Virus record (IMG/VR): IMGVR_UViG_3300028558_000016
Span: 150,014-214,013 of that record
DNA from: a virus
Length of the DNA: 64,000 bases
Direction: 5' to 3' (one strand)
In this document: positions 3 through 56,485 of the stretch, in pieces
How the letters are laid out: the number at the start of each line of letters is the position of its first letter
How positions within the stretch are numbered: the stretch's first letter is position 1
Notes under the pieces: model-generated
What the model was told of the DNA's origin: nothing
Databases searched by the model: none
Seen by the model: only the letters and a program-made list of their open reading frames with translations
Made by a program: the position numbers and the translations under genes

Positions 3-617
3 TATAAGGCCAAGAGAACCGGTGAAACGGTCTTAAGCATGGGATCAACTAAGTCTTTTCCAAAAGAAGCCGTTGGCAAAACGTTCTTTGTAGAGAATGG
101 AATTGGTTACGAATTTGAGGTAAAAGTTCTCGACGCTGAGGGCAATGCGAAGTATAGAATGATATATCCGTTTCGCGAACCTCCTTTGAAAGAATCAGTT
201 GAATACACAAAAGAGAATCCGGTAAACGTGAATTACCCAAGAGTAATTCCTCGTGACCTATTCAATGAGGCAAAGCTTTTAAAATGCATTGGAAAAGTAG
301 TTCTTTATATACATGACAACGACATTCCCGAAGGTTTTGGAATGTCCTTGGATGCAAGCGGAAAAAGAAGTATAGAATCACGCGACCATGGATTCAGCAG
401 CAAGCCGTTCAAGATCGGACTGATGAATGATGGAAGTTTGACCATCACAAATTTAGAAATATTCATAAATGGTGTTTCTTGTGTTTTTAAGACAACATAT
501 AACAGCAAGTCTAACTGGCCCTTGTTTTTGGAATATGAATTAACCGATTACCCAGTGTTCACAGAAGAAGGAAAGTTCGATGAAGAGTTTATAGAAATAG
601 CAAAAACGATAAAATGA
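3..617 (+). CDS. Hypothetical protein, 5'-truncated by the window edge
   Basis: The frame is open from base 3 through an internal ATG at 39 to the stop at 615-617, so the gene probably begins before the window and the ATG at 39 is internal. The visible part is a soluble, mixed alpha/beta protein of about 200 residues with no motif I recognise. It ends four bases inside the next gene (ATGA overlap), so it belongs to the same transcription unit as the leader-tagged genes that follow. Its own N-terminus is outside the window, so a leader peptide cannot be checked. Confidence 0.7.
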   Translation, partial: YKAKRTGETVLSMGSTKSFPKEAVGKTFFVENGIGYEFEVKVLDAEGNAKYRMIYPFREPPLKESVEYTKENPVNVNYPRVIPRDLFNEAKLLKCIGKVVLYIHDNDIPEGFGMSLDASGKRSIESRDHGFSSKPFKIGLMNDGSLTITNLEIFINGVSCVFKTTYNSKSNWPLFLEYELTDYPVFTEEGKFDEEFIEIAKTIK

Positions 618-883
618 ACCACATAAAACTATTTGAGGAATTCACTCTAAATGAGGTGAAGCTTAAGAAGCCAAAAGAAGCTTGGTTCAAAGAAACCAGC
701 GATTATTGGAAGACCGTGAAGGATGCAAAGGTGATTGTCACTGACGAATATTTTTCAAACGGAGAAGGCCATTACAAGGGATATTGGAAGGACGATCCAA
801 CAAAAAAGTTTGACCTTCCAGATGTATTCTTCATGGATGCAGAACTTCAAGCATGGTTAGATAAAAATTCAAAAAAGAAATAA
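614..883 (+). CDS. Small leader-tagged putative internal head protein
   Basis: 89 residues starting MNHIKLFEEFTLNEV. The leader offers two (L/I)xE-type processing sites, LFE at residues 6-8 and LNE at 12-14; cutting after residue 14 would leave a 75-residue, Lys-rich product. The rest (WFKETSDYWKTVKDAKVIV and onward) is not recognised. The start overlaps the stop of the gene before it, which suggests translational coupling. Packaging in the head is inferred from the leader only. Confidence 0.75.
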   Translation: MNHIKLFEEFTLNEVKLKKPKEAWFKETSDYWKTVKDAKVIVTDEYFSNGEGHYKGYWKDDPTKKFDLPDVFFMDAELQAWLDKNSKKK

Positions 884-884
884 C

Positions 885-1160
885 ATGGACCACATTATCA
901 AAAATTTCTTCGATTTCCTAAACGAAGCAGAACACAAAGCTCCGTTGGATTATACGACAATGAAGATCGGAGACACTCTCGTCAATCCAGATGGAACACC
1001 TTGGACAGAACAAGATAAATCAAAGATAGTCGTTCTCAACAAGGGAATAGCCTTAATTGAAGAAAATTTCGTTGACATAATAATTAAGACCGTTCTTGGT
1101 AAAGAAGAAAGATTCACAATCTCAAAAACGAACTTAAAAGAAATAGCAAAGAATCTGTAA
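885..1160 (+). CDS. Small leader-tagged protein, variant leader
   Basis: 91 residues beginning MDHIIKNFFDFLNEAEH. The KLFE core has diverged to KNFF, but the FLNE-A end is intact, with the putative cut between Glu14 and Ala15. The mature part would be a roughly 77-residue, lysine-rich domain (PLDYTTMKIGDTLVNPDG and onward) whose spaced beta strands suggest a small barrel. I do not recognise the family. It sits one base after the previous stop and one base before the next start. Confidence 0.7.
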   Translation: MDHIIKNFFDFLNEAEHKAPLDYTTMKIGDTLVNPDGTPWTEQDKSKIVVLNKGIALIEENFVDIIIKTVLGKEERFTISKTNLKEIAKNL

Positions 1161-2051
1161 ATGAAATTTGTAAAATTGTTTGAAAATTTTCTTAATGAAG
1201 CTGAGATGTCATTTGATGATCTTCATTCCAAATTTAAAAATGCTGGAATGGAAGTAACAAAACCAATAGGCTCTCCAGAAAGAGGAAGCGGCAGAATGTT
1301 TGTTGCAATGCCTCCTGTTAATGGCATGCAATATGTTGCTGACGTTTATGACTTCAACAACGTAAAACAATTTATAGACAAATACAAAAGAATACAAAGG
1401 CACAATGACATAATAGAAAAAGTCTATAAATTCATTGAGTCTAAATACGGAAAAGAAATATGGATCATGTCAGGCGGTGGAGCTCAGCTCCAAGCATTTT
1501 ATGGAAACAAGGACGGTTATTTAGCAACCCTTTATCTTGACATGGAGGATCCAAAGGATAACGACGACTTATTAGCAGCAGGAAGAGGAGATGGAAGTAC
1601 ATTCACTTTAACAGTTAACGGAAGCAAGAACGATAAAAATTTCAAAGATTGCCACATACCAAACGTTGAGGTTTTATATTCAAGAGATTTATATGGTAGA
1701 AGCGACGATGACATGGAAGGATTAGAGGAATATTATGATGCTGACAACGTATTGAAATTGTTAAAGAAGAAATATCCTAAAGCAAAATTCAAAAAACGAA
1801 AATATTACGATAAAGCCGAATGTGTGTTTCTATCGGAAGAACACGACGGAGGTTTGTTAAATTCATGGAACAGAGATTCTAATAGCTATAATGATGGATT
1901 AGAAATAGAATTTGCTAAATTTTTAAAAGAACATGGATTAAAATGGTATTGGCATTCAGAAGAAGGACGAACTCATTGGGATGGAATAGAGATAATTCCT
2001 ACAGATTATAAAGGATACACAGAATATTATAAAAATAAATCCAAGGCATAA
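1161..2051 (+). CDS. Leader-tagged protein of unknown function, 296 aa
   Basis: It begins MKFVKLFENFLNEAEM, a near-consensus leader with LNE at 11-13 followed by Ala. It is one of the largest tagged proteins here, with about 283 residues after the putative cut. The body has acidic stretches around residues 130-145 and 180-195 and a C-terminal half rich in Tyr, Trp and Lys (for example HGLKWYWHSEEGRTHWDGIE). No catalytic motif is recognisable. Its size suggests a folded effector rather than a filler protein, which is inference. The stop overlaps the next start (TAATG). Confidence 0.72.
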   Translation: MKFVKLFENFLNEAEMSFDDLHSKFKNAGMEVTKPIGSPERGSGRMFVAMPPVNGMQYVADVYDFNNVKQFIDKYKRIQRHNDIIEKVYKFIESKYGKEIWIMSGGGAQLQAFYGNKDGYLATLYLDMEDPKDNDDLLAAGRGDGSTFTLTVNGSKNDKNFKDCHIPNVEVLYSRDLYGRSDDDMEGLEEYYDADNVLKLLKKKYPKAKFKKRKYYDKAECVFLSEEHDGGLLNSWNRDSNSYNDGLEIEFAKFLKEHGLKWYWHSEEGRTHWDGIEIIPTDYKGYTEYYKNKSKA

Positions 2052-2308
2052 TGAAACACGTAAAATTATTTGAAGAATTCGATAACGAGGAACTGCTCGT
2101 TAAAGATCTCGAGAACCTTGGATGGGAATTAGCAAGCTTAGCTCCTAACACTGATCCACGTTTCACTAAGGGCGAACTCCAATTGGTGACCAATGAGCCT
2201 GACATGAAATATGAGGTTCAGGACATCAAAGGAAAACACACCGACAAGGACGTTGATGCTGAAACGAAATCAGTCCTACACAAACATAAATTAGAGAGAT
2301 TCAAATAA
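2051..2308 (+). CDS. Small acidic leader-tagged protein
   Basis: 85 residues starting MKHVKLFEEFDNEELL. LFE at 6-8 or DNE at 11-13 could be the processing site. The rest is short and strongly charged, with a segment reading LENLGWELASLAPNTDPRF and a C-terminus rich in Lys, Asp and His. It is unrelated to its neighbours outside the leader. Both ends form TAATG stop/start overlaps, so it is embedded in a continuous translational chain. Confidence 0.72.
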   Translation: MKHVKLFEEFDNEELLVKDLENLGWELASLAPNTDPRFTKGELQLVTNEPDMKYEVQDIKGKHTDKDVDAETKSVLHKHKLERFK

Positions 2309-2571
2309 TGAAACACTTAAAGATTTTTGAAAACTTTAATGGACCTGTTTACAGCGGCGGAAACGTAACTAAGATGCCAGTGATCGGAACCATAACAACT
2401 CTTCCTATGGAGTTCGGAGATTTTAAAATAGCTGCTGGCACGGAAGAAGTAGTTGAGATCATAGATGCTCCTAACGGGAAAAAATGTTATGTATGCAACA
2501 GATGGAACAAGCCAGGAATTCCTCAGTTAGTTCACGAGGACATGGTAGAAAAATATGAGCCAAAGAAATGA
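2308..2571 (+). CDS. Small leader-tagged protein with a CxxC pair
   Basis: 87 residues starting MKHLKIFENFNGPVY; IFE at 6-8 is the only good (L/I)xE site. The body looks like a compact beta domain (TKMPVIGTITTLPMEFGDF) and has one CYVC pair (residues 68-71) that could bind metal or form a disulfide. Family unknown. It overlaps the following gene by four bases (ATGA). Confidence 0.7.
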   Translation: MKHLKIFENFNGPVYSGGNVTKMPVIGTITTLPMEFGDFKIAAGTEEVVEIIDAPNGKKCYVCNRWNKPGIPQLVHEDMVEKYEPKK

Positions 2572-2933
2572 GAATAAAATTATTTGAGCAGTTTATAAAT
2601 GAGGGAAGCCAAATAGAAAAGGTCCAGGATCTTTTTGAAACTGATTTCTTAGAACAGCAATTCGTAAAAGATTCGTTTGGAGAAAACCCAGACTACGATA
2701 TTGATAACGACACTACTCCATCTCCGGAAGGAGGGCTTGATAAAATAGTTTGGATTGAAATAAAAAATCCAACAGATGAAGCGAAGCAAGCCATCGATAA
2801 AGATTACAAAACTTTCGCAAAGCCGTTTGAAGAATGGGCAGCCAAACATGATTTATACAATCCGGAAATTACTACGTCTGACGACGAAGATACAGCTTCC
2901 AGCATGAGTTTCAAAATAACAATATTGAAATGA
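2568..2933 (+). CDS. Leader-tagged acidic protein, 121 aa
   Basis: It begins MRIKLFEQFINEGSQ, a leader one residue shorter than the MKHIKLFEEF form, with INE at 10-12 followed by Gly. The remaining 109 residues are very acidic (DYDIDNDTTPSPEGG; TTSDDEDTASS). Acidic internal proteins could balance packaged DNA or act as DNA mimics, but nothing specific supports either. ATGA overlaps exist at both ends. Confidence 0.72.
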   Translation: MRIKLFEQFINEGSQIEKVQDLFETDFLEQQFVKDSFGENPDYDIDNDTTPSPEGGLDKIVWIEIKNPTDEAKQAIDKDYKTFAKPFEEWAAKHDLYNPEITTSDDEDTASSMSFKITILK

Positions 2934-3292
2934 AACTAAAACTATTTGAGCAGTTCGTAAATGAGGAAAACGTGGATTTCTTTGACATAGATCCTAAAAA
3001 TCCTCCATCAACTGATGACAGCGTGAACTATGTTGCAAAACATGCAATAGGAGAACTCGTCAACTTCACGTTCAATGGCGTTAAGATTCCTGCAATTGTC
3101 AGAGTGATCTACCACACAAACGGAAAGGTGAGATATGCAATAAGATTGATAGGAACTGACGAGAATGGAAAAGAATATTACAGCACTATACACAACGTTG
3201 ACTCCATATTCGTTGAGGACAACCTCGACCAAGACGGAAAGAGAACGATATATGACGCAGACTCGGTTGAAGATTTTGACAACTATTCATAA
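2930..3292 (+). CDS. Leader-tagged protein, 120 aa
   Basis: It starts MKLKLFEQFVNEENV, almost the same leader as the gene before it, with VNE at 10-12, although the two bodies are unrelated. The body contains a likely beta-barrel stretch (GELVNFTFNGVKIPAIVRV, then VRYAIRLIGTDENGKEYY) of the SH3/KOW general type; this is only a pattern impression. The C-terminus is acidic. Confidence 0.7.
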   Translation: MKLKLFEQFVNEENVDFFDIDPKNPPSTDDSVNYVAKHAIGELVNFTFNGVKIPAIVRVIYHTNGKVRYAIRLIGTDENGKEYYSTIHNVDSIFVEDNLDQDGKRTIYDADSVEDFDNYS

Positions 3293-3777
3293 TGAAACAC
3301 ATTAGTTTATTTGAAGCATACAAGCACGAAGAGATATTCCCATCCGAAATATTTGGAAAGGATACCGGCATGGATTGGATCTATAAGAATTGGAAGCTTC
3401 CATGCAGTCCAGAAGAAGCTGCAAATAAAGTAGACAAGTGGTCTGACGATCTTGATGTAAAATCGAAAGCAGAAAAAGCTGGAGGAGAATTGATAAAGTT
3501 CTTTCAGAAATTGGTGCACGATAATCCAGATTTGAAGGATCTTGGAGAACCCAAATCATGGTTGAACATAATTGATTTCTGTTATGGAGCAATAAGTAAG
3601 TTCAATGTTGATGACATTAAGTTCTATGCAAACCTTGATTGGAACGACAAGTTAAAATACAACATGAGCAACAGAGCATTGCAGGACAAGATCGAATCAA
3701 AAACTAAAAGCTCCATAGGATGGGTGATGAGCCCAACTACTATCGAGAGAGTCAAAAAAGAACTAAAAATGAAATAA
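3292..3777 (+). CDS. Leader-tagged helical protein, 161 aa
   Basis: It begins MKHISLFEAYKHEEIF; LFE at 6-8 is the probable processing motif. The remainder is mostly helical, with a central Lys-rich amphipathic region (residues 45-75), one Cys in the segment LNIIDFCYGAISKF, and a basic C-terminus. No family recognised. The stop codon shares its last A with the next ATG. Confidence 0.7.
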   Translation: MKHISLFEAYKHEEIFPSEIFGKDTGMDWIYKNWKLPCSPEEAANKVDKWSDDLDVKSKAEKAGGELIKFFQKLVHDNPDLKDLGEPKSWLNIIDFCYGAISKFNVDDIKFYANLDWNDKLKYNMSNRALQDKIESKTKSSIGWVMSPTTIERVKKELKMK

Positions 3778-4544
3778 TGAAATACATAAAGCTATTCGAA
3801 AACTGGATGAACGAAGCGTTTTACCTTGAAGGTTTCAAACAAAACATGAAATCTAAAGTAGAAGGAAACATCGACCAATACATAGACTTTGATGAGCCGG
3901 CAAACCTTTATTATGTGAAGATTCCGTATGATAAAATAAAGGGAGATGCTGCTGAAGTCATTTCGCCTTATGTTGACGGAAAATATCCTAAGTGTAAATC
4001 AGCAAGACTCGATGCAGACAAGCAAGAAGTTTCTATGGTTTTCACAAACGAGTCAAAGAATAACGATGACATTAAAGTTAATGATGTGGTTCGTTTAAAA
4101 ACTGATCAATCTTACGAAGGTAAAAAAGGAGTTGTTGAATCGATTGATGGTGATACTGCAATGGTAAATTGGGGTGACCGTCTTGGAGATTGGGAGTCTA
4201 AAAACAAAAAAGTCACACCTCATAAATTAAATACTTTGATCAGCAATGGTCAACGTGTAACTGAAGCAGAAGAAAAGATCGACCTCAAAGCAAAGTTCCC
4301 AGAATTAGTCGCTGCTTTAGAAAAAGCAAAGGTTCCATGCAAGGTTAAATTATTGGATGCTCCTCACAGCGAGATTGTTGTGGAATGTGGCTGGGATTAT
4401 CCAGACAGCATATTCGACAAAGTCGACAAGGCAGCAAATTCTGTAGGATTAAATACAAGCAATAACGTTAATGTGTGCGCTGATCAATCCGGCGGAACTG
4501 TTGTAGATTCTAAAAGAATAGCAGGCGGACCAAAAAGATATTAA
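3777..4544 (+). CDS. Leader-tagged protein with a KOW/SH3-like middle domain
   Basis: The real start is the ATG at 3777, not the upstream in-frame ATG at 3720, because it restores the leader MKYIKLFENWMNEAFY (MNE at 11-13, then Ala) and the TAATG junction. At about residues 98-150 a KOW/SH3-like module is visible (VNDVVRLKTDQSYEGKKGVV), a fold common in RNA polymerase and ribosome-binding proteins. The C-terminal 90 residues form a second domain (FPELVAALEKAKVPCKVKLL). A host transcription or translation target is possible but unproven. Confidence 0.72.
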   Translation: MKYIKLFENWMNEAFYLEGFKQNMKSKVEGNIDQYIDFDEPANLYYVKIPYDKIKGDAAEVISPYVDGKYPKCKSARLDADKQEVSMVFTNESKNNDDIKVNDVVRLKTDQSYEGKKGVVESIDGDTAMVNWGDRLGDWESKNKKVTPHKLNTLISNGQRVTEAEEKIDLKAKFPELVAALEKAKVPCKVKLLDAPHSEIVVECGWDYPDSIFDKVDKAANSVGLNTSNNVNVCADQSGGTVVDSKRIAGGPKRY

Positions 4545-4546
4545 AC

Positions 4547-5254
4547 ATGAAATCTCTCCAACAATTCTGGTTTGCTTCTGCACCCATTGATTTGGAACAT
4601 AAGCAATACGTCTTAATGGATTTTCTACAAAGCGTGAAGGATGACTTCACGCTTGACGTTTTGTATCCTTGGCTCTCTGAGGTCCAGAAACAATACGCAG
4701 ACCTCACAAAGTTCAAGTTTGAAAGAGATGAGATGCTTGAAAGATTCAAGAAGATAAAGAGGATAAACCTCGAAAAGATGAAGCTGGAATACGAATACGA
4801 CACATCTTGGATAACAAAAGATTTTGAGGAAGTTCACAACATCATAGAATTCTCAATACCTCATCTGGAAACCTGGATGAAGAAAGGACAACATTTCTAC
4901 GATAATATTTCCAACCAGATGAAGTGGGAGACAATAGGATTGATACCAGAATATAAAGACGAGGGTTATTTCATTCTGCACATCGATTCAAGAGACATAT
5001 TCATCTACAGGTTTAAAATAGAGAACATCATTCTTGAGTCAGATAACTACTTTGGAATAACAACAGAACTCATAGATTTTTTCAATTCAAGGTTTAAAAC
5101 CTATGAGGACCTTAAACGAGATTTGATAAAAAAGCATAAGGATCTTCCAGTTCCATACACCGTTTCCGTTCAGACTAAGTTCTATCCTATGAAGGAAACA
5201 CTCATGCCGATAGTGAAGAGAAACGGCCTGGTATGGGTCAAAAACGGATACTAA
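4547..5254 (+). CDS. Hypothetical protein, 235 aa, no leader
   Basis: It starts MKSLQQFWFASAPIDLEHK, which is not the shared leader. The protein is soluble, rich in aromatic and charged residues, with a long Lys/Glu-rich amphipathic helix at about residues 55-85. I do not recognise it. It follows the preceding leader gene by two bases and ends in front of a late-promoter-like motif, so it appears to close the first transcription unit. Confidence 0.7.
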   Translation: MKSLQQFWFASAPIDLEHKQYVLMDFLQSVKDDFTLDVLYPWLSEVQKQYADLTKFKFERDEMLERFKKIKRINLEKMKLEYEYDTSWITKDFEEVHNIIEFSIPHLETWMKKGQHFYDNISNQMKWETIGLIPEYKDEGYFILHIDSRDIFIYRFKIENIILESDNYFGITTELIDFFNSRFKTYEDLKRDLIKKHKDLPVPYTVSVQTKFYPMKETLMPIVKRNGLVWVKNGY

Positions 5255-5260
5255 TATATA
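5253..5260 (+). promoter_or_regulatory. AATATATA late-promoter-like motif
   Basis: The octamer AATATATA lies 20 bases before the ATG of the secreted protein at 5281. The same octamer with the same spacing precedes the genes at 6081 and 51599, and it resembles the T4 late promoter TATAAATA. Assignment is by recurrence only. Confidence 0.5.
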
Positions 5261-5280
5261 CAAAAAGAACTGATCAATCC

Positions 5281-5700
5281 ATGAAGAAAATCTTAGCATT
5301 TTTAATAGCATTCCTGTTGTCTTTTGCGACAATTTCAGAAGCACAGACTCAAACTTATTACAAGAAGTTTCAAACCGATACTTACATTCCTTGGAAAATA
5401 ACCAACGAGGGTTGTTACGGTTGCGCCTCTTTTTATTGGCTGGTGAACAGGACTTTTCTTCCATCAAACAACACATACAAGTTCGAGATATGGTTCTACA
5501 GCAACAGCTACTATCCTAACGGAGCTTGGGCTTCCACCTATGTTCAAGGATTATACTTCAACGTCGACGGATACAATCTTTATGCTGAACCATCGTGGGT
5601 TTTATTTAAAGACAAATACACATCGAGTCTTTCCACATTCTTCACACCAAACCCAACGCCCGTCGTCAAGATGACTTGGGCATCAATGAAAGTTTACTAA
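5281..5700 (+). CDS. Small secreted protein
   Basis: The start is placed at 5281, where MKKILAFLIAFLLSFATISEAQ forms a signal peptide; an upstream in-frame ATG at 5233 would bury it. Cleavage before Gln22 gives about 118 residues rich in Tyr, Phe, Ser and Asn, with a CYGC pair soon after the mature N-terminus. That composition suits a small periplasmic or extracellular beta-sheet protein. The family is not recognised. It is the first gene after a late-promoter-like motif. Confidence 0.72.
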   Translation: MKKILAFLIAFLLSFATISEAQTQTYYKKFQTDTYIPWKITNEGCYGCASFYWLVNRTFLPSNNTYKFEIWFYSNSYYPNGAWASTYVQGLYFNVDGYNLYAEPSWVLFKDKYTSSLSTFFTPNPTPVVKMTWASMKVY

Positions 5701-5701
5701 T

Positions 5702-6052
5702 ATGAACATAGATTTTTCAAAACTTAAATTCCAGACAAACTGGGCCAGCGCAACAACGATTGTCACTCTATTGATTGGAGTCATAACATTGTACATGACA
5801 AACAGCGGATTGAAGAACCAAATAGATGGTCTTCAAAAGAGCAATGATGCTTTAACCAAATCGGTTGGAACTCTTGGCGAATCTGTTTCAGCATTGAAAG
5901 GTTCACAGGAAGTTACATCGAAAGCCATAGAGATATTCATGCAGAATCCTCCAGGAGAACTGAAGTACAGGATAGAGAGAATGGAACAAAGGTTTGGCAT
6001 GTCAGCCGCTGACACAACTTCCAAACCTTTCAACAATAACCATCCACATTAA
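5702..6052 (+). CDS. Single-TM coiled-coil protein
   Basis: 116 residues. A hydrophobic segment (residues 17-34, TTIVTLLIGVITLYMT) is followed by a heptad-rich stretch (NQIDGLQKSNDALTKSVGTL) and a basic helix. One transmembrane segment plus a coiled coil fits an inner-membrane spanin-like protein or a membrane-bound adaptor; no partner gene overlaps it, so the role stays open. It starts one base after the previous stop. Confidence 0.6.
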   Translation: MNIDFSKLKFQTNWASATTIVTLLIGVITLYMTNSGLKNQIDGLQKSNDALTKSVGTLGESVSALKGSQEVTSKAIEIFMQNPPGELKYRIERMEQRFGMSAADTTSKPFNNNHPH

Positions 6053-6060
6053 AATATATA
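6053..6060 (+). promoter_or_regulatory. AATATATA late-promoter-like motif
   Basis: AATATATA ends 20 bases before the ATG at 6081, the same spacing as at 5253-5260. It overlaps the end of the coiled-coil gene before it. Confidence 0.5.
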
Positions 6061-6080
6061 CAGAAACCAACAAATATACC

Positions 6081-6467
6081 ATGGACAAAAGAGACATTGA
6101 GAAGTTAAGATTGAAGACGCAGATGAACGAGACATTACACCTCGTTGAGACATCTCCATACCAATCAATAAGACAGAATGCTGAATTGAAGCTCAAGTTT
6201 CTTCAGGAACAATACAAGGGAGCTTTTGGAGAATATTCAAAGGAACACGAGATTGCAGAAAAGGGAATGTATGAAGGAAAACCTTTTTGGGAAGTAACCG
6301 AAGCAAGAAGAAAAGACGGTGAGGTCTTCAGAACCGGAGATAAGTACATGGATGGAAATAATAAAACTTTTACCATCAAGATCATGACCATCTCTCCTAA
6401 TGGGAAGTTGATGGCAACAGCTGAAGAAGGCGGACAAATAGATCTTGGCAACGTAAAGAAAGCATAA
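6081..6467 (+). CDS. Hypothetical soluble protein, 128 aa
   Basis: The ATG at 6081 (MDKRDIEKLRLKTQMNETL) is chosen over the in-frame ATG at 5994 because it lies 20 bases downstream of a promoter-like motif and avoids overlap with the gene before it. The N-terminal half is a charged helix; the C-terminal half (RTGDKYMDGNNKTFTIKIM and onward) looks like a small beta domain. Family unknown. The leader genes at 6469-8471 follow it. Confidence 0.65.
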   Translation: MDKRDIEKLRLKTQMNETLHLVETSPYQSIRQNAELKLKFLQEQYKGAFGEYSKEHEIAEKGMYEGKPFWEVTEARRKDGEVFRTGDKYMDGNNKTFTIKIMTISPNGKLMATAEEGGQIDLGNVKKA

Positions 6468-6468
6468 C

Positions 6469-6654
6469 ATGAAAAACCTAAAACTTTTTGAAGCATTCTT
6501 TGAAGAACTTTCTGAAAAGAAGGAACAACTCAGATCCAAGAAAGGAAAGTGGGAGATCATTGGACCTGAAGAGAAAGTTCCTGACGGTTGGAGAGTTATG
6601 AACGTCACAGGACTTCCTGATGGATATAAAGCAATTTGTAAAACAACTGACTAA
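6469..6654 (+). CDS. Very small leader-tagged protein
   Basis: 61 residues starting MKNLKLFEAFFEELSE, with LFE at 6-8 or FEE at 11-13 as possible cut sites. Under 50 residues remain, mostly basic, including GPEEKVPDGWRVMNVTGLP. The mature product would be near the size of the smallest T4 internal head proteins. It overlaps the next start (TAATG). Confidence 0.68.
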   Translation: MKNLKLFEAFFEELSEKKEQLRSKKGKWEIIGPEEKVPDGWRVMNVTGLPDGYKAICKTTD

Positions 6655-7046
6655 TGAAATACGTAAAATTATTTGAAGAATTCACAGACGATGGTCAGGA
6701 CCCACACGGTCATAATTCCAATCAGGAAGCTTCAAAGGCATACATATATTACATCAACAATGATGACGAAAAACATTTCGACGCTGACATTAGAGACCCT
6801 GATGGCAAGATTATTTTTGAATTGACTGCTTCAGACCTTTCAAACGATGGACACATGAAAGGAAAGGATGACGTTCAAGGATTAAGAGAATTGCTTTTAA
6901 GCAAGAACAAGATTAAACAGGGAGACACGATAGTTCCAGCCAATTCAACTGCAAAAGTTGTAGGAGGACAGAACATGGATTTCGTTCCTGAGTTAAACAC
7001 GAACCTGAACCAGACTTTGATAAACCAAAAATCAGAACCGGAATAA
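6654..7046 (+). CDS. Leader-tagged acidic protein, 130 aa
   Basis: It begins MKYVKLFEEFTDDGQD; the NE end of the leader is replaced by DD, leaving LFE at 6-8 as the candidate cut. The body is rich in Asp, Asn and His (GQDPHGHNSNQEASKAYIY) and ends in a low-complexity Asn/Gln segment. Function unknown. The start and stop both overlap neighbouring genes. Confidence 0.68.
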   Translation: MKYVKLFEEFTDDGQDPHGHNSNQEASKAYIYYINNDDEKHFDADIRDPDGKIIFELTASDLSNDGHMKGKDDVQGLRELLLSKNKIKQGDTIVPANSTAKVVGGQNMDFVPELNTNLNQTLINQKSEPE

Positions 7047-7303
7047 TGAGAATAAAAGATTTTAAAAACTTCGGCCTTACAGAAAAGGAAGAAGACTTCG
7101 TGAACGGAACAAATACAGAAGAGTTCAACATTCTCGTTTCTAAATTAGTCGATCATGAATTGGAAGAATTTGAAGAGGAAGACGCAGAAGAAAAGGGAAT
7201 CACAAAGGATGATTGCCAGAAGATTAAAGACTATCTCGTTCAAAACAAATTATATGTCGCTCCTGAAAAAGAGGAAGGCGAAGAAAAAACAGACGGTGAA
7301 TAA
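7046..7303 (+). CDS. Very acidic short protein with a degenerate leader
   Basis: 85 residues starting MRIKDFKNFGLTEKEED. KLFE has become KDFK, while LTE at 11-13 keeps a usable (L/I)xE site. The rest is extremely acidic, with Glu runs (EEFEEEDAEEKGI and KEEGEEK), a composition seen in DNA-mimic proteins and also in disordered spacers; neither can be chosen from sequence. A second overlapping frame (7155-7367) is a shadow of this gene. Confidence 0.62.
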   Translation: MRIKDFKNFGLTEKEEDFVNGTNTEEFNILVSKLVDHELEEFEEEDAEEKGITKDDCQKIKDYLVQNKLYVAPEKEEGEEKTDGE

Positions 7304-7363
7304 TGAACTTGTTGCAGAAGCTAAGATGGGGACTCCTCATAACACAATTAATGGAAATAAGAA

Positions 7364-7942
7364 ATGAAATACGTAAAACTGTTTGAGGGATTCCTCAATG
7401 AAGGTAAATCCAAATTACTTGGAAAAGATCTGCCTACTCCTTTTTCATCTGAGGTGACGATGACCCAGGCAAACATTGATTGCGTAATTTCTTTTCTTGA
7501 ACAAAAAGGAATAGAAGCAACAGACGAAAATATAGCGCTTCTCGTTGCTAATATAATGCCGACTCATAAAGACTCAGTTGCTTTTGACAACGGTAAAGGA
7601 TTTGATATTGATGACAGCGACTTTGACAGTTGGGAAGACGTCAGGTCTAATTTTCCAGGATATGAAGATGTAGATGAATCTTTAAACGAAGCAGACAGAA
7701 GCATCAAGGACATTGCAGCTGACGTTAAGGCAGATTGGAAGAACGTTTCACCTTATGCCAAACCTTATCTCGATGCGATGTTTGATTTGAACACCATTGA
7801 TGACAAGTACATCGAGGACTCTGCTTCAAGCGTTCTATCTTATTTTCTTGCAAACGCAGCAACCTGGAAGGGTGAGAAAGCAAAAGCGATCAAGAAGGAA
7901 TTGAACGATATGTTGAAAGTATATTACAAGAAGAACAAATGA
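7364..7942 (+). CDS. Leader-tagged protein with a second NE-A site
   Basis: 192 residues beginning MKYVKLFEGFLNEGKS (LNE 11-13, then Gly). A second SLNEA motif at about residue 106 divides an acidic N-terminal part from a helical C-terminal domain (VKADWKNVSPYAKPYLDAM), so a prohead protease could release two products. This is an inference from the repeated motif. It follows a 60-base spacer that has no other convincing gene. Confidence 0.7.
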   Translation: MKYVKLFEGFLNEGKSKLLGKDLPTPFSSEVTMTQANIDCVISFLEQKGIEATDENIALLVANIMPTHKDSVAFDNGKGFDIDDSDFDSWEDVRSNFPGYEDVDESLNEADRSIKDIAADVKADWKNVSPYAKPYLDAMFDLNTIDDKYIEDSASSVLSYFLANAATWKGEKAKAIKKELNDMLKVYYKKNK

Positions 7943-8157
7943 AGAACATAAAATTTTTCGAGAACTATCAAGAGAATGAGCTTCCAAAGAACAAGGCGAT
8001 GGATGAAATCAAGGAAGCATTCCTTAGATTTATTTTAAACGGCGCAAAGATAAAATTGGAAGATGTTCAAGAGGTTCACGCATTCAACAAGTACACAGAG
8101 ATCAAGACCAAGTTTCAGACTTACAGGATCGACTACGACATAAAGATTATAGGATAA
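7939..8157 (+). CDS. Small leader-tagged protein, 72 aa
   Basis: It starts MKNIKFFENYQENELP; the leader core reads KFFE and the second Glu lies at residue 12. The rest is a short alpha/beta unit with the segment AFLRFILNGAKIKLEDVQ. Not recognised. ATGA overlap upstream and TAATG overlap downstream. Confidence 0.66.
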   Translation: MKNIKFFENYQENELPKNKAMDEIKEAFLRFILNGAKIKLEDVQEVHAFNKYTEIKTKFQTYRIDYDIKIIG

Positions 8158-8471
8158 TGAAACACGTAAAACTATACGAGAACTTCCTTAACGAAAAAGA
8201 ATTAAATCTAACCAAAGGAAAAAAATTCAAGGTTCTTAAGGACACTGAATTAACCTGGTTTGAAAACACCGGTGGATCTTCGTTTTCTCCAAAAAGCGTT
8301 GAAGTGAAAACAGGAGAAACGTTGACATATCTTGGAAATGGATTCGGCGCATTTGCTGGATCTGACGACGTGGCAGTTCCTCAATTCCAAAAAGAATCTG
8401 GAGAAAAAGGTGAACTAAAAGATACAGGAACTTGGGGACAACTTCCAACCGGAGTTCTAAAAAATATTTAA
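8157..8471 (+). CDS. Leader-tagged beta-rich protein, 104 aa
   Basis: It begins MKHVKLYENFLNEKEL, with Phe replaced by Tyr in the core and LNE at 11-13. The body has alternating hydrophobic and charged residues and Gly turns (GKKFKVLKDTELTWFENTG; TLTYLGNGFGAFAG), consistent with a small beta barrel. No family identified. It is the last leader gene before the baseplate wedge gene. Confidence 0.68.
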   Translation: MKHVKLYENFLNEKELNLTKGKKFKVLKDTELTWFENTGGSSFSPKSVEVKTGETLTYLGNGFGAFAGSDDVAVPQFQKESGEKGELKDTGTWGQLPTGVLKNI

Positions 8472-8472
8472 G

Positions 8473-8835
8473 ATGGCAAGAGAAATCTATATGAGGGATC
8501 CGACCGATCCGTATTTTAAGTCCGACATCATGGAAATTAATGATGAGGTTGAAATGCTCATCACTCAGATCAAGATGATTTTGTTCACAAGACCTGGAGA
8601 AGTATTAGGAGCTCCTGATTTCGGAGTTGCATTGGAAGACCAACTGTTCACGTTCAACATAAACGAATATGCTTTGAAGTCGATGTTGTTTGACCAGGTG
8701 ATAAAGTTTGTTCCTTTGTCAGAGAAGTATCACGTCAAGTTTGACATCAACTTCTCAAAGGGAACCGTTAGGGATATTTGTCTTATAGACGTTGTTATAA
8801 ACGGAAATCCGTTGTTTGGAATATTAGTTAAATAA
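8473..8835 (+). CDS. Baseplate wedge subunit, gp25-like (GPW/gp25 family)
   Basis: 120 residues, close to T4 gp25 (132). The family hallmark is visible at residues 39-51 (TRPGEVLGAPDFG), followed by a hydrophobic core (LEDQLFTFNINEYALKSML) and a C-terminal beta strand pair. gp25 is part of the conserved sheath-initiating baseplate core in contractile tails. It has no leader, as expected for a tail protein, and sits between leader genes. The gp6-like and gp7-like wedge genes lie 1.6 and 5.8 kb downstream. Confidence 0.88.
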   Translation: MAREIYMRDPTDPYFKSDIMEINDEVEMLITQIKMILFTRPGEVLGAPDFGVALEDQLFTFNINEYALKSMLFDQVIKFVPLSEKYHVKFDINFSKGTVRDICLIDVVINGNPLFGILVK

Positions 8836-8837
8836 TT

Positions 8838-9062: not shown

Positions 9063-9063
9063 T

Positions 9064-9522: not shown

Positions 9523-9530
9523 TTTAAAAC

Positions 9531-21466: not shown

Positions 21467-21552
21467 ATCGCATGCTCTATTATTAGAGACATTATACAAA
21501 CTCCAACAAGAAGTCCTAAGTAAAATGCTGCAAAAAGATTTTTATTTTCCAT
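21463..21552 (-). CDS. 29-aa single-TM micro-protein
   Basis: The product begins MENKNLFAAFYLGLLVGVCI and ends MSLIIEHAI, so about 20 central residues form one membrane segment. The start shares a base with the stop of the SprB-repeat gene (TAATG) and its stop overlaps the next start (ATGA). This chain-like spacing on both sides is the best support for a real gene. Confidence 0.6.
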   Translation of the reverse strand: MENKNLFAAFYLGLLVGVCIMSLIIEHAI

Positions 21553-51598: not shown

Positions 51599-51820
51599 AT
51601 GAAGAACATCAAATTATTCGAGAATTTTAGAACCGATGATGCTAAGAAAGCATTTGATGCGGTAACAGAACTAAGCGCCCAAGAACTGGAAGAATTTCTG
51701 TTTGCACTTTCTAAATACTTTGATGACAGCAAAGAAGAATTAACCAACATGAACGCGGAAGACATAAGCAAATCTTTGCATGACGCTGCTGAAATGGTAC
51801 AAAATAGATCAGGAAATTAA
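51599..51820 (+). CDS. Small leader-tagged helical protein
   Basis: 73 residues starting MKNIKLFENFRTDD, LFE at 6-8. The rest is two helices (AKKAFDAVTELSAQELEEFL). It resembles the tagged protein at 53383 in size and helical make-up. First gene of the second leader-gene cluster. Confidence 0.68.
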   Translation: MKNIKLFENFRTDDAKKAFDAVTELSAQELEEFLFALSKYFDDSKEELTNMNAEDISKSLHDAAEMVQNRSGN

Positions 51821-51821
51821 T

Positions 51822-52661
51822 ATGAGAATAAAATTATTCGAGAACTTTAGCAAAGGCCCAGAGCTTTTGAATTCATTCCAGGATGCTGAAAGCAAGTTAT
51901 CCGATAAAGATGGAATTGTATTGCCTGGAGTAACAGGAGACATGACTCATATTGAAGATGCCATTAAAGACATCCCACACAATGAGGCTTACGTTCTAAT
52001 CACAGACCAAAGCAGTCACGTTGCTTCTTCATGGAAGAGCGATGTGTTTCTTGTTGGTGGAACTAAGGAAGGTGAAATGTCCATAAAACAATATTTCGAT
52101 GAAGAATGGACAGACCCAGCAGGTGGAACACACCGTGGAAACGAAGAAGATCCAGCCGCAGCTTATGAAGCCGAAGTCAAAGCCAAAAAAGTTCCATTGA
52201 AAGATTTATTAAAGAGTAAATCAATAGAGCCAGGTAATTTCCTTTCAATGAAAGGTTGGCCAAAAGCTCTTGTTGACGGAATAGATTATGCTAAGAAAAC
52301 AATATCTCTTCAATTCAAAGAAGATGGTCCTATAAATGATTATAAGTTCGATGATGAGTCTCTTGAAAAAGGAAATATCATGACAAAATTATGGGAGCAC
52401 GTAAACGAAGGAACCATGATCTCAAAGAGAAATATGGATCTTGACGCATTCAAACACCAAGGTTCTTTCTTCAATAGAGAACCTCATTCAAACGATTCTC
52501 CTGTTCATGGTAAATCTATAAAAGAACTCAACGAAGAAAGATCTGGCGATCTTTTAATGGAACTAACTAACGTCATAACAAGATATAAAACTAAGATGAA
52601 GCCAGAAGCTATCTTTGATGTTTTACATCTTTTAGCTGAAAGACAAAAGAACGAATTTTAA
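51822..52661 (+). CDS. Leader-tagged protein, 280 aa
   Basis: The start at 51822 gives MRIKLFENFSKGPE; the in-frame ATG at 51780 overlaps the gene before it. LFE at 5-7 is the cut candidate. After an alpha/beta N-terminal domain (NEAYVLITDQSSHVASSWKS) there is an Ala/Glu/Lys linker and a C-terminal helical part (LLMELTNVITRYKTKMKPEA). It is one of the larger tagged products. Function unknown. Confidence 0.68.
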   Translation: MRIKLFENFSKGPELLNSFQDAESKLSDKDGIVLPGVTGDMTHIEDAIKDIPHNEAYVLITDQSSHVASSWKSDVFLVGGTKEGEMSIKQYFDEEWTDPAGGTHRGNEEDPAAAYEAEVKAKKVPLKDLLKSKSIEPGNFLSMKGWPKALVDGIDYAKKTISLQFKEDGPINDYKFDDESLEKGNIMTKLWEHVNEGTMISKRNMDLDAFKHQGSFFNREPHSNDSPVHGKSIKELNEERSGDLLMELTNVITRYKTKMKPEAIFDVLHLLAERQKNEF

Positions 52662-52662
52662 T

Positions 52663-52914
52663 ATGGAAAAACTAAAACTGTTTGAAGCATTCGTCAATGA
52701 AGACGATATAAGAGCAAGAGGAGTTATTGACAGCAAAGAAGCTTTAGTTGCATTCATGACATCTCTTGTTAGAGGTGAAGTTGCACAGCTCATAGGTGGA
52801 AAGATGACACAAACAAACATCAAAATAATCTTGGCTGACATTGGCTTCGATCAAATCGAAGAAGCTTTAGATGAGATTAAGAAAGAAGTTGAAAGATTAA
52901 AAAAAGAAATGTAA
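52663..52914 (+). CDS. Small leader-tagged helical protein, 83 aa
   Basis: It begins MEKLKLFEAFVNEDD, VNE at 11-13. The helical body (SKEALVAFMTSLVRGEVAQL) shares a TSLVRGEVxxxIGGKMT-type pattern with VSSI...LRAKLTWGN of the protein at 53383, so the two may be diverged paralogues. Confidence 0.68.
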   Translation: MEKLKLFEAFVNEDDIRARGVIDSKEALVAFMTSLVRGEVAQLIGGKMTQTNIKIILADIGFDQIEEALDEIKKEVERLKKEM

Positions 52915-52916
52915 TC

Positions 52917-53285
52917 ATGACATTCGAGGAATATTACAACAAGAAGGTTTCTGAATCGCAAGACGATTTCAAACTATTCACGGACTTCAAGTCTGAAGAG
53001 AACAAAGGACTTTATTATCTGACTGAGCAAGAAAATGCTCAGATAGACGAATATGTAAAGATGTTTGAGAGCGAACATGGAAATGACCTGTCTAAACTTG
53101 ACGAGGCTTTCTTTGGAAAAATCATGGGTGGTGTTGCTGGTTTCTTAGTTGGACCGACCATCGGCAAGATCATCGCAAACGCACTTGGTATCGAAAAAGG
53201 AATTTTGTTTGACATGTTCACAAGCAGATTGGTTTCTACCGCTCTTGGATCTGCCATAGGAAAATCCATCGGCCAAAAGAAATAA
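52917..53285 (+). CDS. Glycine-zipper membrane-active protein, possible tagged protein
   Basis: 122 residues. The start MTFEEYYNKKVSES is a distant version of the leader (VSE at 11-13), and a second site LDE-A occurs near residue 63. The C-terminal half is a glycine-zipper pair (GKIMGGVAGFLVGPTIGKII; STALGSAIGKSIG), as in pore-forming and membrane-inserting proteins. It may help DNA pass the host membrane if packaged, or act on the membrane from inside. Confidence 0.58.
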   Translation: MTFEEYYNKKVSESQDDFKLFTDFKSEENKGLYYLTEQENAQIDEYVKMFESEHGNDLSKLDEAFFGKIMGGVAGFLVGPTIGKIIANALGIEKGILFDMFTSRLVSTALGSAIGKSIGQKK

Positions 53286-53386
53286 TGAAGCCGTTTCATG
53301 ATATGTGGATGGCATGGATAACATGCTACATTGCAATGCTGCAAACCCCATTCATGATATTAAAAGAATCTACAAAGAAGAAATGA
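53285..53386 (+). CDS. 33-aa micro-protein
   Basis: MKPFHDMWMAWITCYIAMLQ begins a small Met/Trp-rich, mostly hydrophobic peptide with a basic end. Its start shares a base with the stop before it and its stop overlaps the next leader gene (ATGA). A small membrane peptide is likely; the function is unknown. Confidence 0.5.
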   Translation: MKPFHDMWMAWITCYIAMLQTPFMILKESTKKK

Positions 53387-53574
53387 GAATCAATAAATAC
53401 GACGATTTTGACATGAACGAGGGATATGCAGAAACTCTTAAGCTGGTAGTTTCTTCCATTAAAAACGCTTCAGACGAAGAGATCGATAAAATCAGTCAAA
53501 TACTCAGAGCCAAATTAACGTGGGGCAACATCAAGGACATTGCCGACGTCTTACATGTAGAAATACAAAAATAA
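53383..53574 (+). CDS. Small protein with degenerate leader, 63 aa
   Basis: The start at 53383 gives MRINKYDDFDMNEGYA (MNE at 11-13, then Gly); the in-frame ATG at 53305 is out of step with the ATGA overlap. The body is helical (VSSIKNASDEEIDKISQILR) and resembles the tagged protein at 52663. Confidence 0.62.
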   Translation: MRINKYDDFDMNEGYAETLKLVVSSIKNASDEEIDKISQILRAKLTWGNIKDIADVLHVEIQK

Positions 53575-53580
53575 TCCTTC

Positions 53581-54126
53581 ATGAAACGAATAAAGGATTT
53601 TAATTCATTCAATGAATCTCTTGAAGTATGGGCACCTAAAGTAGCATACACTAATACTTTGTACATCATGCCTAAGAAAGATCCAGATTTGGATAAGGCA
53701 GACATCGAAGGAAAAGAAATAACTCCAAAGGTTCCTCAATTCGATTTAGTAAAAACCCTAACCATAATATTAGCAGATGGAAATTTGTCTGCTAAAGCAG
53801 CTCAAATATTTCCTAATACCGATCTCACCAAAGCTATAAAGAATCCAGACATGCTTGGTCCTGAAGAGAAAGACAAATTGATTCAGATATACAATAACAT
53901 AATATTAAAAGATTATGTGCTTAGACAAGAATATGACGTGCTTCCAGAATCCATAGACGAAAACATGTGCCCTGAATGTGGCGAGGAATATACGTCGCAA
54001 TGCAAATGCATGACAACTCACAAAAAGACTTTAGAAGATTTAAAAAGAGGACATGGTAAAACTTGTCCCAACGGACATACGTGGACGTACGACACTCCAG
54101 ATGGAAAAGTAATAGTAGTGAAGTAA
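53581..54126 (+). CDS. Leader-tagged protein with zinc-binding C-terminus
   Basis: 181 residues starting MKRIKDFNSFNESLEV, a degenerate leader. The C-terminal 45 residues form a rubredoxin/zinc-ribbon-like knot: CPECGEEY at about 138-145, CKC near 150, and CPNGHTW near 168. The middle is a helical domain (LTIILADGNLSAKAAQIF). A zinc knot on an ejected protein could bind DNA or protein; no family assigned. Confidence 0.66.
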   Translation: MKRIKDFNSFNESLEVWAPKVAYTNTLYIMPKKDPDLDKADIEGKEITPKVPQFDLVKTLTIILADGNLSAKAAQIFPNTDLTKAIKNPDMLGPEEKDKLIQIYNNIILKDYVLRQEYDVLPESIDENMCPECGEEYTSQCKCMTTHKKTLEDLKRGHGKTCPNGHTWTYDTPDGKVIVVK

Positions 54127-54225
54127 ATGAGTTGTTGTTTAAATTCACCAAAGAAGAAAATAGAGAAACCTAAGGTAAAAGAAAAGCCAAAGGTAAAAGT
54201 AAGCAAAGAGAAGAAGACGAAATGA
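54127..54225 (+). CDS. 32-aa lysine-rich micro-protein
   Basis: MSCCLNSPKKKIEKPKVKEK begins a peptide that is about half Lys, with PKVK repeats and a Cys pair at residues 3-4. The stop overlaps the ART-like gene's start (ATGA). It could bind DNA or RNA. Low complexity makes the call tentative. Confidence 0.42.
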   Translation: MSCCLNSPKKKIEKPKVKEKPKVKVSKEKKTK

Positions 54226-55052
54226 AACACATAAGATCATACAAGCAACATCTCGAGGAAGGACTCATAAAAACTTATGACGTCACAGAATTTGTCAAGC
54301 ATTTCAACAAGATGATTGCGGCAAAAGATTACAAGAAGCTTTTATCGAATGCAAAAGTTGATCCTGATGCGCACGTGTGGTTGATCGTAAAAATTAAACC
54401 AGACACAATTAATTTTGCAAAAGAATTAGTCAGTCTAATGAACGTTCTTGGATACTATGTGTCTGATGTAAATTTTCGTGGATATAACATTGATGACGAG
54501 GCAAACCATCCACCGAAGAGCAACGACGATTTTTTAAAAATAGTAAAACAGGCTGAAGAAGAAAATGCGAGTGCTATTCAATTGCTCATTGAACCTAAAT
54601 TTGAAGAAGAGGCCGAAGGAAAATTCACAATTCTATATCACATCACAGAAGAAAAACATTTGAAGAAAATTCAAGAGATGGGATTGGTTCCTAAGTCTAA
54701 ATCTAAAGTAACATATCATCCAGAAAGAATTTATCTTGCGACCAAAGAAGCAATGGCATTCCTTTTTACTAAATACAAAGATTACGTAAAAGATCCAGTC
54801 GTTCTCAGAGTCAACGTTAAAGGCTTGAAACTGTATCCAGACATTAATGCTGGAAAAGGAACGTATTTTACCACAACAAATATCTCTCCGGATAAAATCA
54901 AACCGTTGAAACAGGATGCGTATGACATAATGAATAAATATTTGAAAAATAAACCAGCTTCAAATCAAGGTTGGGATATTGAAAAATTATTGTCAAATTT
55001 ATTAGGACAAGCTCAAAAAGGAATAATATCAACGCAAAATGCGACACATTAA
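54222..55052 (+). CDS. Leader-tagged ADP-ribosyltransferase-like protein
   Basis: 276 residues. The leader MKHIRSYKQHLEEGLI keeps LEE at 11-13 followed by Gly. After a helical N-terminal domain, residues about 137-229 resemble an ART fold: LYHITEEKHLKKIQEMGL (138-155, His140), a strand IYLATKEAM (170-178), and VVLRVNVKGLKLYPDI with GTYFTTTNISPDKI. T4 packages the ADP-ribosyltransferase Alt with a capsid-targeting leader, so a tagged ART is expected biology. The catalytic Glu is not certain. It is followed by the leader gene at 55039 (overlap). Confidence 0.6.
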   Translation: MKHIRSYKQHLEEGLIKTYDVTEFVKHFNKMIAAKDYKKLLSNAKVDPDAHVWLIVKIKPDTINFAKELVSLMNVLGYYVSDVNFRGYNIDDEANHPPKSNDDFLKIVKQAEEENASAIQLLIEPKFEEEAEGKFTILYHITEEKHLKKIQEMGLVPKSKSKVTYHPERIYLATKEAMAFLFTKYKDYVKDPVVLRVNVKGLKLYPDINAGKGTYFTTTNISPDKIKPLKQDAYDIMNKYLKNKPASNQGWDIEKLLSNLLGQAQKGIISTQNATH

Positions 55053-55485
55053 ACTATATGAGGAATTTGTGGTTGACGAGGGATTAATGAAATCTCTTGG
55101 CAAGCTCGCAAAGTTTGCTTTAATTCTTCCTAAGGTGATGCAGTATGTTGGATTCGCTTCATCTGCATTAGGAAAACACTTCAACAACGATAAGGCCCAA
55201 GACATTGCAAAGTTTCTCGTTCAAAATGGAAAATCTCTTGACAACAAATACAAACAAACTGTTGCTTCAGCTTTAGCACCGTTCTTAAAAGACCCTTCAA
55301 AGAAAGACCAAGTCGCAAAGGATTACATTTATTATTTAACAGCCAAACACGTTGGCGGAGGTTTCTCTGACAAAAGCATGGCATTACACGATCCGCATAA
55401 ATCAGCTATGAACGTTATAGGAAGCGTTGATCCAAGCAACATATTAAACAATGCCAGAAAAATATTTCCACAATTATTGAAATGA
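55039..55485 (+). CDS. Leader-tagged protein with hydrophobic helix, 148 aa
   Basis: It begins MRHIKLYEEFVVDEGLM (VDE at 12-14, then Gly). The next region (LGKLAKFALILPKVMQYVGF) is a hydrophobic amphipathic helix, and the rest is helical and basic. A membrane-interacting internal protein is possible. Both ends overlap neighbouring genes. Confidence 0.66.
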   Translation: MRHIKLYEEFVVDEGLMKSLGKLAKFALILPKVMQYVGFASSALGKHFNNDKAQDIAKFLVQNGKSLDNKYKQTVASALAPFLKDPSKKDQVAKDYIYYLTAKHVGGGFSDKSMALHDPHKSAMNVIGSVDPSNILNNARKIFPQLLK

Positions 55486-56069
55486 AGCACTTAAAGCTAT
55501 ACGAGGAATTTGTGGATGAGGCAATACTTCTTCCAGGACAACAGAAGATTAAAAGAGCTGATGCAATGGAAATTGCTAAGACTATAATTGAAGGCATGGG
55601 TTTTAAGTATGTGGATCCTGACACTGTAACAACCAATTATGAGTTTGAGAAGAACGTTGGAATCCCAGTTGGTTCAATAAGAAGAAAGAGGCCTGAAGTT
55701 GGAGACATCGACATCATAATAACTTCACCAATAAACACGATGAAGCTTAGACAAGAACCATGGGCCAAAACCGTTTCAGGCGGAGACAAACAAGTTAATT
55801 TTATTTATGAGGATGGAACAATTAAACGAAAAGTGAATTTATTTTCATTCGTTGATCCTGCAACTTTCGGCGGAGCTCTATTACATACTACCGGTTCTCA
55901 TCAATACAATGTAAGATTAAGATTCGTTGCCAACCAAAGAGGATTTGGAAAACTCAGCCAACATGGATTATTTGATGACAATGGAAAATTAATAGCAGGT
56001 CCAACGGAAGCTTCAATACAGAAGGCGATGAAGGTCACGCAACGCGAACCTAAAGAACGAGAGAAATAA
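55482..56069 (+). CDS. Leader-tagged DNA polymerase X-like protein
   Basis: 195 residues, starting MKHLKLYEEFVDEAILL (VDE 11-13, then Ala). GSIRR at 64-68 and GDIDI with Asp75 and Asp77 match the pol beta palm motif. TTGS at 136-139 with Asn143 and Arg147 match the YFTGS...N...R thumb region, and GFGKLSQHGLF follows. The third catalytic Asp of the family is Asn119 here (RKVNLF). The minimal palm-plus-thumb size resembles viral Pol X enzymes. Activity may be altered or lost. Confidence 0.72.
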   Translation: MKHLKLYEEFVDEAILLPGQQKIKRADAMEIAKTIIEGMGFKYVDPDTVTTNYEFEKNVGIPVGSIRRKRPEVGDIDIIITSPINTMKLRQEPWAKTVSGGDKQVNFIYEDGTIKRKVNLFSFVDPATFGGALLHTTGSHQYNVRLRFVANQRGFGKLSQHGLFDDNGKLIAGPTEASIQKAMKVTQREPKEREK

Positions 56070-56071
56070 AC

Positions 56072-56079
56072 GATATATA
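56072..56079 (+). promoter_or_regulatory. GATATATA late-promoter-like motif
   Basis: Four bases before the secure leader start at 56084, directly after the Pol X-like stop. Confidence 0.45.
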
Positions 56080-56083
56080 GTCT

Positions 56084-56485
56084 ATGAAACACATTAAATT
56101 ATTCGAGAATTTCAATGAAGGCAAAGCGAAAGCCAATCCAACCGCTGACGAGAATTTCAAACCAATAGGTCCTGAGATAACTTACAAAAATGAATTCAAT
56201 GAAACTACGTTCATCGGACAAATCTATAAAGAAAAATACCAAAATGACAGAATTGCTCTTGAAATGATCGGCACAAAAGGAAAATACAAAGGAGAAACAA
56301 TTCTCGTTGCAACCATAAATGTTCCATCAGAAAAAATTGCAGATGATGAAGTCATCATTAAAAACTATTCTGAGAACGAAGGAATTCTCGATGTTTTGAT
56401 TGACGCAAAGATAATTTCCAAGCCAATCAGACAAGTTTCCACTGGTCACGTTTCAGCTCCAGTTTGCAAGCTTCTTATCAAATAA
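56084..56485 (+). CDS. Leader-tagged beta-rich protein, 133 aa
   Basis: It begins MKHIKLFENFNEGKAK (FNE at 10-12, then Gly). The rest alternates strands (TFIGQIYKEKYQNDRIALEM; GETILVATINVPSEKIAD) and looks like a compact beta domain. Function unknown. It is the last tagged gene seen and is followed by a hairpin. Confidence 0.68.
   Translation: MKHIKLFENFNEGKAKANPTADENFKPIGPEITYKNEFNETTFIGQIYKEKYQNDRIALEMIGTKGKYKGETILVATINVPSEKIADDEVIIKNYSENEGILDVLIDAKIISKPIRQVSTGHVSAPVCKLLIK

Follow-up and report, generated by a model that had tools for sequence, protein, structure and literature searches.

A T4-type capsid-targeting leader predicted on scores of unrelated proteins in a large T4-like phage

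Why should dozens of unrelated phage proteins begin with the same short peptide? The question is raised by the window analysed here, a stretch of 64,000 nucleotides corresponding to positions 150014-214013 of the 482,156-base virus record IMGVR_UViG_3300028558_000016, in which many genes open with variants of the leader consensus M-K-x-x-K-L-F-E-x-F-x-N-E. A preliminary description of the window had read this leader as the mark of a packaged protein arsenal, and that interpretation is supported by the sequence comparisons reported below. The leader is most probably (probability of about 0.86) a T4-type, removable capsid-targeting sequence (CTS) whose form is peculiar to this T4-like lineage of Bacteroidota phages. 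The principle is known; the form is new and strongly expanded.

The start of every open reading frame (ORF) in the window was read, and 32 leader genes were counted (approximately 24 strong and 8 diverged), which is within one of the 33 given in the preliminary description. The leader is approximately 13 residues long. A position-specific scoring matrix was built from leaders of other phages only, avoiding circularity, and residues 2-25 were permuted to provide the null. At a score of 6 or more, 22 window ORFs were recovered against a permuted mean of 0.06 (maximum 1), while 18 ORFs scored 10 or more against 0 in the permutations. Searching the remaining genome for further copies, as had been proposed earlier, gave a total of 71 leader genes, a lower bound that covers the roughly 180 kb of the 482-kb record read in eight stretches. 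A strict pattern applied to the whole record yielded 38 matches against 1 in the backward control, with a few more outside the stretches read. The leader genes are clustered: two blocks lie in the window (614-10390 and 51599-56485) and a third at 457.8-469.9 kb of the record. Only one weak match between bodies was detected among the 71 leader proteins; the bodies are unrelated, as had been stated earlier. Other earlier details held in part. A hydrophobic-x-E motif at residues 10-19, in keeping with the proposed (L/I)xE cut site, is carried by 56 of the 71 leaders and missing from the other 15; Ala or Gly after the final Glu, previously given for at least 14 window proteins, was found in 13 by the rule used here, making the earlier figure about right.

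The absence of a gp21-like protease from the genome had been named in advance as an observation that would speak against packaging. The genome does encode an S77 protease (record 68283-70328, minus strand, L012; PF03420, E = 4.4e-8, 30.8 bits with a cut-off of 27), and its gene adjoins a gp23-type capsid gene (PF07068, 6.5e-44), both at 66-70 kb of the record. The protease gene product has 681 residues and consists of the S77 domain followed by a scaffold part. By inspection, the catalytic His and Ser motifs are conserved, GELDHP and SSRA being present where T4 gp21 has GELNHP and SSRG. The scaffold part is composed of approximately twelve 14-residue repeats rich in LAE, such as YSEYLAENVDKSI, and [FY][LIV][ANST]E tetrapeptides occur 14 times in this part compared to 0.45 times in permutations. 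A candidate maturation site in the capsid protein, placed by eye, reads HYHSLNE/SSST (here and below, the slash marks the predicted cut) and resembles the FLNE/A of the leaders; candidate sites placed by eye in relatives read HNHKLYE/DAN or HSLNE/SAG. In the T4 record, MKTYQEFIAE/A is found in IPII and IPIII and SFLTE/A in gp23, and the aromatic-x-x-F-[IL]-x-E spacing is identical in the T4 leader and in FENFLNE. Together, the motifs support an L-x-E type site common to capsid protein, scaffold and leaders. Because the leader holds both L-[FY]-E and L-N-E, and both forms occur at the capsid site, the comparison also suggests that two cuts per leader are possible.

Judged from homologous genes in related phages, the leader is a module, carried by many small and unrelated proteins, that can be exchanged. 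In the two-domain leader protein encoded at 7364-7942 (plus strand, leader MKYVKLFEGFLNE/G), the C-terminal half shares 75% identity with a relative's leader protein that stands alone. The homology begins at LNE, and the internal SLNE/ADRS junction, with its predicted cut after base 7690, corresponds to the leader junction FLNE/ADRS of that relative. Homologs of the protein encoded at 54222-55052 in two megaphages carry other leaders (MIYSFPKYLQHIKE and MIYSFGKFINLLNE) in front of the same EGLIKT junction; these relatives came from phage records, and none was found in the viral-contig search. The profile of the anti-Thoeris protein Tad3 matched four contigs over its cut-off (69-80 bits), and the protein is leader-bearing in three of these phages (L182, L183 and L185) and leaderless in the fourth. 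A relative, L135, has the same gene order as the window at 5-14 kb with a different set of leader genes, which suggests that cargo has been exchanged at fixed places between L135 and this phage.

With the leader back-translated into a DNA pattern, matches came from at least 118 viral-contig stretches, whereas the 84,980 prokaryotic (bacterial and archaeal) genomes gave none; on this basis the leader was rejected as a general feature of hosts or bacteria. Among 18 leader-bearing contigs, nearly all longer than 100 kb, gp23 was present in 16 and the S77 protease in 14, and incomplete contigs may explain the gaps. The S77 frames were mostly 606-747 residues long, i.e. scaffold-fused. Leaders of other phages are strongly conserved at K5 (100%), L6 (99%), E8 (99%), F10 (95%) and E13 (93%), less so at N12 (79%), and position 14 is Ala in 32% and Ser in 16%. 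The 279 leader ORFs of other phages fall into 133 body families. Phage PAU has a version of its own (MK[TS]xxxLYEAKLNEA), present on no fewer than 16 proteins, including four of the five annotated as 'internal capsid protein' (gp142, gp154, gp199 and gp270). T4-style leaders (MKTFKQFITEA) were also found clustered on unrelated proteins in the T4-like contigs L218, L262, L285 and L290, and an expanded leader set is therefore not confined to this lineage. Starts resembling MKTFTYFINE/A are present in Chryseobacterium phage MA9V-2.

A pathway modelled on T4 would account for these observations. The leader peptide would probably fold into a short amphipathic helix and bind the core of the prohead; the scaffold of that core appears in this phage to be fused to the head protease. 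Once the shell closes, the S77 protease would cut after L-x-E, at LNE and probably also at KL[FY]E. The common motifs and the conserved protease suggest that the capsid-protein propeptide and the scaffold would be trimmed in the same step. As in T4, the trimmed proteins would then remain with the DNA and pass into the host when the phage infects.

Three other explanations were weighed. If the shared unit were a DNA or RNA element (a promoter, a ribosome site or a duplicated 5' cassette) and the peptide its by-product, identical codons should be in excess, and a slight excess was indeed observed in the leaders (0.535 of pairs compared to 0.475 expected; null 95% range 0.451-0.503). The excess is attributed to a 5' AAA/CAC bias and falls far short of what duplication of a DNA cassette would leave. 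Between pairs of leader genes, DNA identity averages 0.66 over the leader, 0.29 over the body and 0.28-0.35 upstream, and it is residues, not codons, that are conserved across phages. Since leader codon use is near the genome expectation and the flanks are dissimilar, the peptide rather than the DNA is kept, as had been proposed earlier from synonymous codon variation. A DNA cassette or RNA element as the shared unit was rejected on the codon and flank data, and its probability is negligible. Homolog pairs showed higher identity in the leader than in the body (74.5% compared to 60.6%) and a lower nonsynonymous/synonymous ratio (1.11 compared to 1.71), a test that is supportive only, because the pairs are not independent.

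The leader might instead target the head and remain uncut as a permanent docking helix. This is unlikely, even though such a helix would be consistent with the leaders that have no second L-x-E and with KL[FY]E being the most constant element (L and E both 99% in other phages). Docking alone does not predict a 93% conserved E13 followed by a preference for small residues, a window 7364 junction that coincides with the leader/body boundary of a relative, or an E/GLIKT junction conserved behind different leaders. It is very improbable that the leader directs proteins elsewhere in the infected cell, such as to the host membrane, a phage compartment or a replication site, with no involvement of the virion. 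Many bodies do look like host-acting enzymes that need not be packaged, and the leader looks like an amphipathic helix of a generic kind; however, the leader has its site type in common with the capsid protein and scaffold, it co-occurs with the S77 protease, a leader gene (record 59349-59747) lies beside the head genes, and T4 provides a precedent with matching spacing. Several points nevertheless weigh against a removable capsid-targeting sequence. A second L-x-E is absent from 15 of the 71 leaders, although most of these retain KL[FY]E, itself a match to L-x-E. The L-x-E motif is loose, the capsid sites were set by eye, and shared T4-like descent could account for part of the motif agreement. 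The fifth 'internal capsid protein' of PAU, gp70, has no leader, and the PAU record gives no basis for these labels, which are therefore only suggestive. No virion proteomics of this phage exists, and the papers that could be read contained none of its close relatives and no virion mass spectrometry of PAU, PTm1 or MA9V-1/2.

All leader genes of the window are on the plus strand. The first block opens with genes at 614-883 (MNHIKLFEEFTLNE/V), 885-1160 (MDHIIKNFFDFLNE/A) and 1161-2051 (MKFVKLFENFLNE/A; 296 residues, phrog_15575, unknown function), followed by those at 2051-2308 (MKHVKLFEEFDNEE) and 2308-2571 (MKHLKIFENFNGP, without the second LxE). The next four are located at 2568-2933 (MRIKLFEQFINE/G), 2930-3292 (MKLKLFEQFVNE/E), 3292-3777 (MKHISLFEAYKHEE) and 3777-4544 (MKYIKLFENWMNE/A), the last starting at 3777 and not at the ATG upstream at 3720. 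The gene at 6469-6654 (MKNLKLFEAFFEE) precedes one at 6654-7046 (MKYVKLFEEFTDDG), whose L135 homolog also has the leader, and a diverged one at 7046-7303 (MRIKDFKNFGLTE/K), also with a homolog in L135. Beyond the two-domain gene at 7364 are leader genes at 7939-8157 (MKNIKFFENYQENE) and 8157-8471 (MKHVKLYENFLNE/K), a diverged one at 8838-9062 (MKNLKHFDELNE/G), a weak one at 9064-9522 (MKHIQPLNEALQ) and one at 10112-10390 (MKHIKLFEEMNE/S), for which the L135 homolog is apparently leaderless.

Between the blocks, the leader is fused directly to an esterase-like domain at 13446-13970 (MKHIKLFE/EQTTHSKILFLHG; UPF0227, 6.9e-8), and the relative of this gene in L135 retains the leader. Further genes are found at 17965-18246 (MRHIKLFEAYNADK), 25346-25711 (MKHIKTYNEAINE/G), 25708-26040 (MKHLKSFENLNE/N) and 44155-44391 (MKRVKLFEDFHNDLNALHE/G). 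The second block comprises genes at 51599-51820 (MKNIKLFENFRTDD), 51822-52661 (MRIKLFENFSKGP) and 52663-52914 (MEKLKLFEAFVNE/D), two diverged genes at 53383-53574 (MRINKYDDFDMNE/G) and 53581-54126 (MKRIKDFNSFNE/S), and genes at 54222-55052 (MKHIRSYKQHLEE/GLIKT), 55039-55485 (MRHIKLYEEFVVDE/G), 55482-56069 (MKHLKLYEEFVDE/A) and 56084-56485 (MKHIKLFENFNE/G).

Most leader proteins match no known family, and no confident anti-defence match was obtained among those of this phage. The body encoded at 54222 may be ADP-ribosyltransferase-like: its profile matches to the ADP-ribosyltransferase fold (E = 0.0085 and 0.01 to RNA 2'-phosphotransferase, 0.18 to DarT1) are weak but consistent. A phmmer search of the PDB with this protein returned only chance actin matches, and a single-sequence structure model with a predicted local distance difference test (pLDDT) score of 41 was too poor and was not used. 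The body encoded at 55482 is DNA polymerase X-like, with the thumb domain matching at 2.9e-15 (PF14791), the palm below its cut-off and PolX chains in the PDB at 5e-8. By inspection it retains GDIDI, and PolX activity is doubtful because the third catalytic Asp appears to be Asn (RKVNLF). The phage also encodes a GNAT-like leader protein and an LPD11 domain, named from large polyvalent proteins, behind a leader (record 469654-469851, 2e-31). Glycine-rich, amphipathic or hydrophobic stretches (GILGDIIGGLFGKIKEKV, GVLSSIKNFFSRMLGG and AFFGKIMGGVAGFLVG) begin the predicted post-cut products of record 59747-60607 and 58012-59352 and of window 52917-53285 and 55039-55485; proteins with such starts are possibly membrane-active.

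Tad3 was not found in the record of this phage. In L182 and L185, a leader gene one gene beyond Tad3 encodes an Acb1/2H-like protein. The Acb1 profile scored 24.2 and 21.9 bits in relatives, below its cut-off of 27, and the 2H family PF13563 just reached its cut-off in one of these Acb1-like proteins; the name Acb1/2H-like, and not Acb1, is used because the Acb1 cut-off was not reached. Other leader cargo in relatives includes nucleotidylyltransferase, a zeta-toxin-type kinase domain, GNAT and PAP2. Several cargo proteins look like tools for countering host defence or for host takeover.

By its gene content the phage is a T4-like myovirus. The window encodes a baseplate wedge protein, a UvsW-like helicase, a primase, a RuvC-like resolvase and a single-strand binding protein, and most of its large tail and replication genes are without leaders. 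Among public records, the closest comprise an uncultured phage of 462 kb, Prevotella Lak phages, other megaphages, phages of Tenacibaculum, Flavobacterium and Chryseobacterium, and the 'Sphingomonas' phage PAU; the host of PAU is a Sphingobacterium despite this label (PMC3738902), and the phage grows on Sphingobacterium HER1398. A host in the Bacteroidota is likely, because the nearest records include phages of that group. The 634-residue protein encoded at 21552-23456 (minus strand) has a signal-peptide-like start, repeats and a C-terminal tail like a type IX secretion sorting domain, features that also point to a Bacteroidota host.

The chances are about even that the leader is an address that would allow, throughout a large T4-like group, the effectors preloaded into each virion to be listed from DNA alone, as an exchangeable arsenal numbering dozens to scores per phage. 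Such an arsenal would include anti-immune Tad3 and Acb1/2H-like proteins acting at entry, before phage gene expression, and most of the small unknown proteins behind the leader would be counter-defence or takeover factors. If true, the leader would single out the injected ones among the uncharacterised proteins of jumbo phages, which otherwise only proteomics can find. The leader could also double as a packaging tag for Bacteroidota phages.

Other systems share single aspects of this arrangement. Many head proteins of phiKZ and SPN3US are cut after x-x-E by the prohead protease and injected with the DNA (PMC5694885, PMC13282480). The present phage is likewise a jumbo phage, with packaging, cutting and injection predicted only; unlike its leader of approximately 13 residues, the phiKZ/SPN3US propeptides are mostly longer than 100 residues, no single short leader is common to them, and the lineage is a different one. 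The N-terminal residues of phage P1 DarB suffice to package a reporter (PMC9024508), again an N-terminal packaging signal, but of unrelated sequence and on one protein only. The anti-Thoeris/CBASS protein Tad1 is delivered with the phiKZ virion (PMC13282480). According to the same source, a 2026 review, no anti-defence protein other than injected Tad1 has been described from jumbo phages, and a larger arsenal is suspected. Virion delivery of the leader-bearing Tad3, which belongs to another family, would be similar and is only predicted; leader-bearing Tad3 and the Acb1/2H-like proteins are direct candidates for that suspected arsenal.

The closest counterpart is T4, whose few internal head proteins (IPI, IPII and IPIII) are the textbook case. 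Their CTS is likewise a short N-terminal leader beginning M-K, with an aromatic residue and Phe three apart and F-[IL]-x-E/A at its end, and diverse bodies stand behind one leader in a genome that also encodes an S77 protease and gp23. MKTYQEFIAE/A in T4 corresponds to MKxxKLFENFLNE/A in this phage, where the leader is longer and has gained a KL[FY]E block, the protease is fused to a repeat scaffold, the host group differs and enzymes are among the cargo. The ADP-ribosyltransferase-like proteins behind predicted capsid leaders (window 54222 and PAU gp144) recall T4 Alt, a packaged ADP-ribosyltransferase, although no close sequence relation is shown and the assignment is weak. The T4 CTS alone suffices to package foreign proteins, and IPI* shields the DNA from a restriction enzyme (PMC3012670, PMC5694885). 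With 71 leader genes against the three internal proteins of T4, the earlier expectation of far more than in T4 was borne out, and the T4 principle is scaled to approximately 70 genes in one phage and more than 130 body families across viral contigs.

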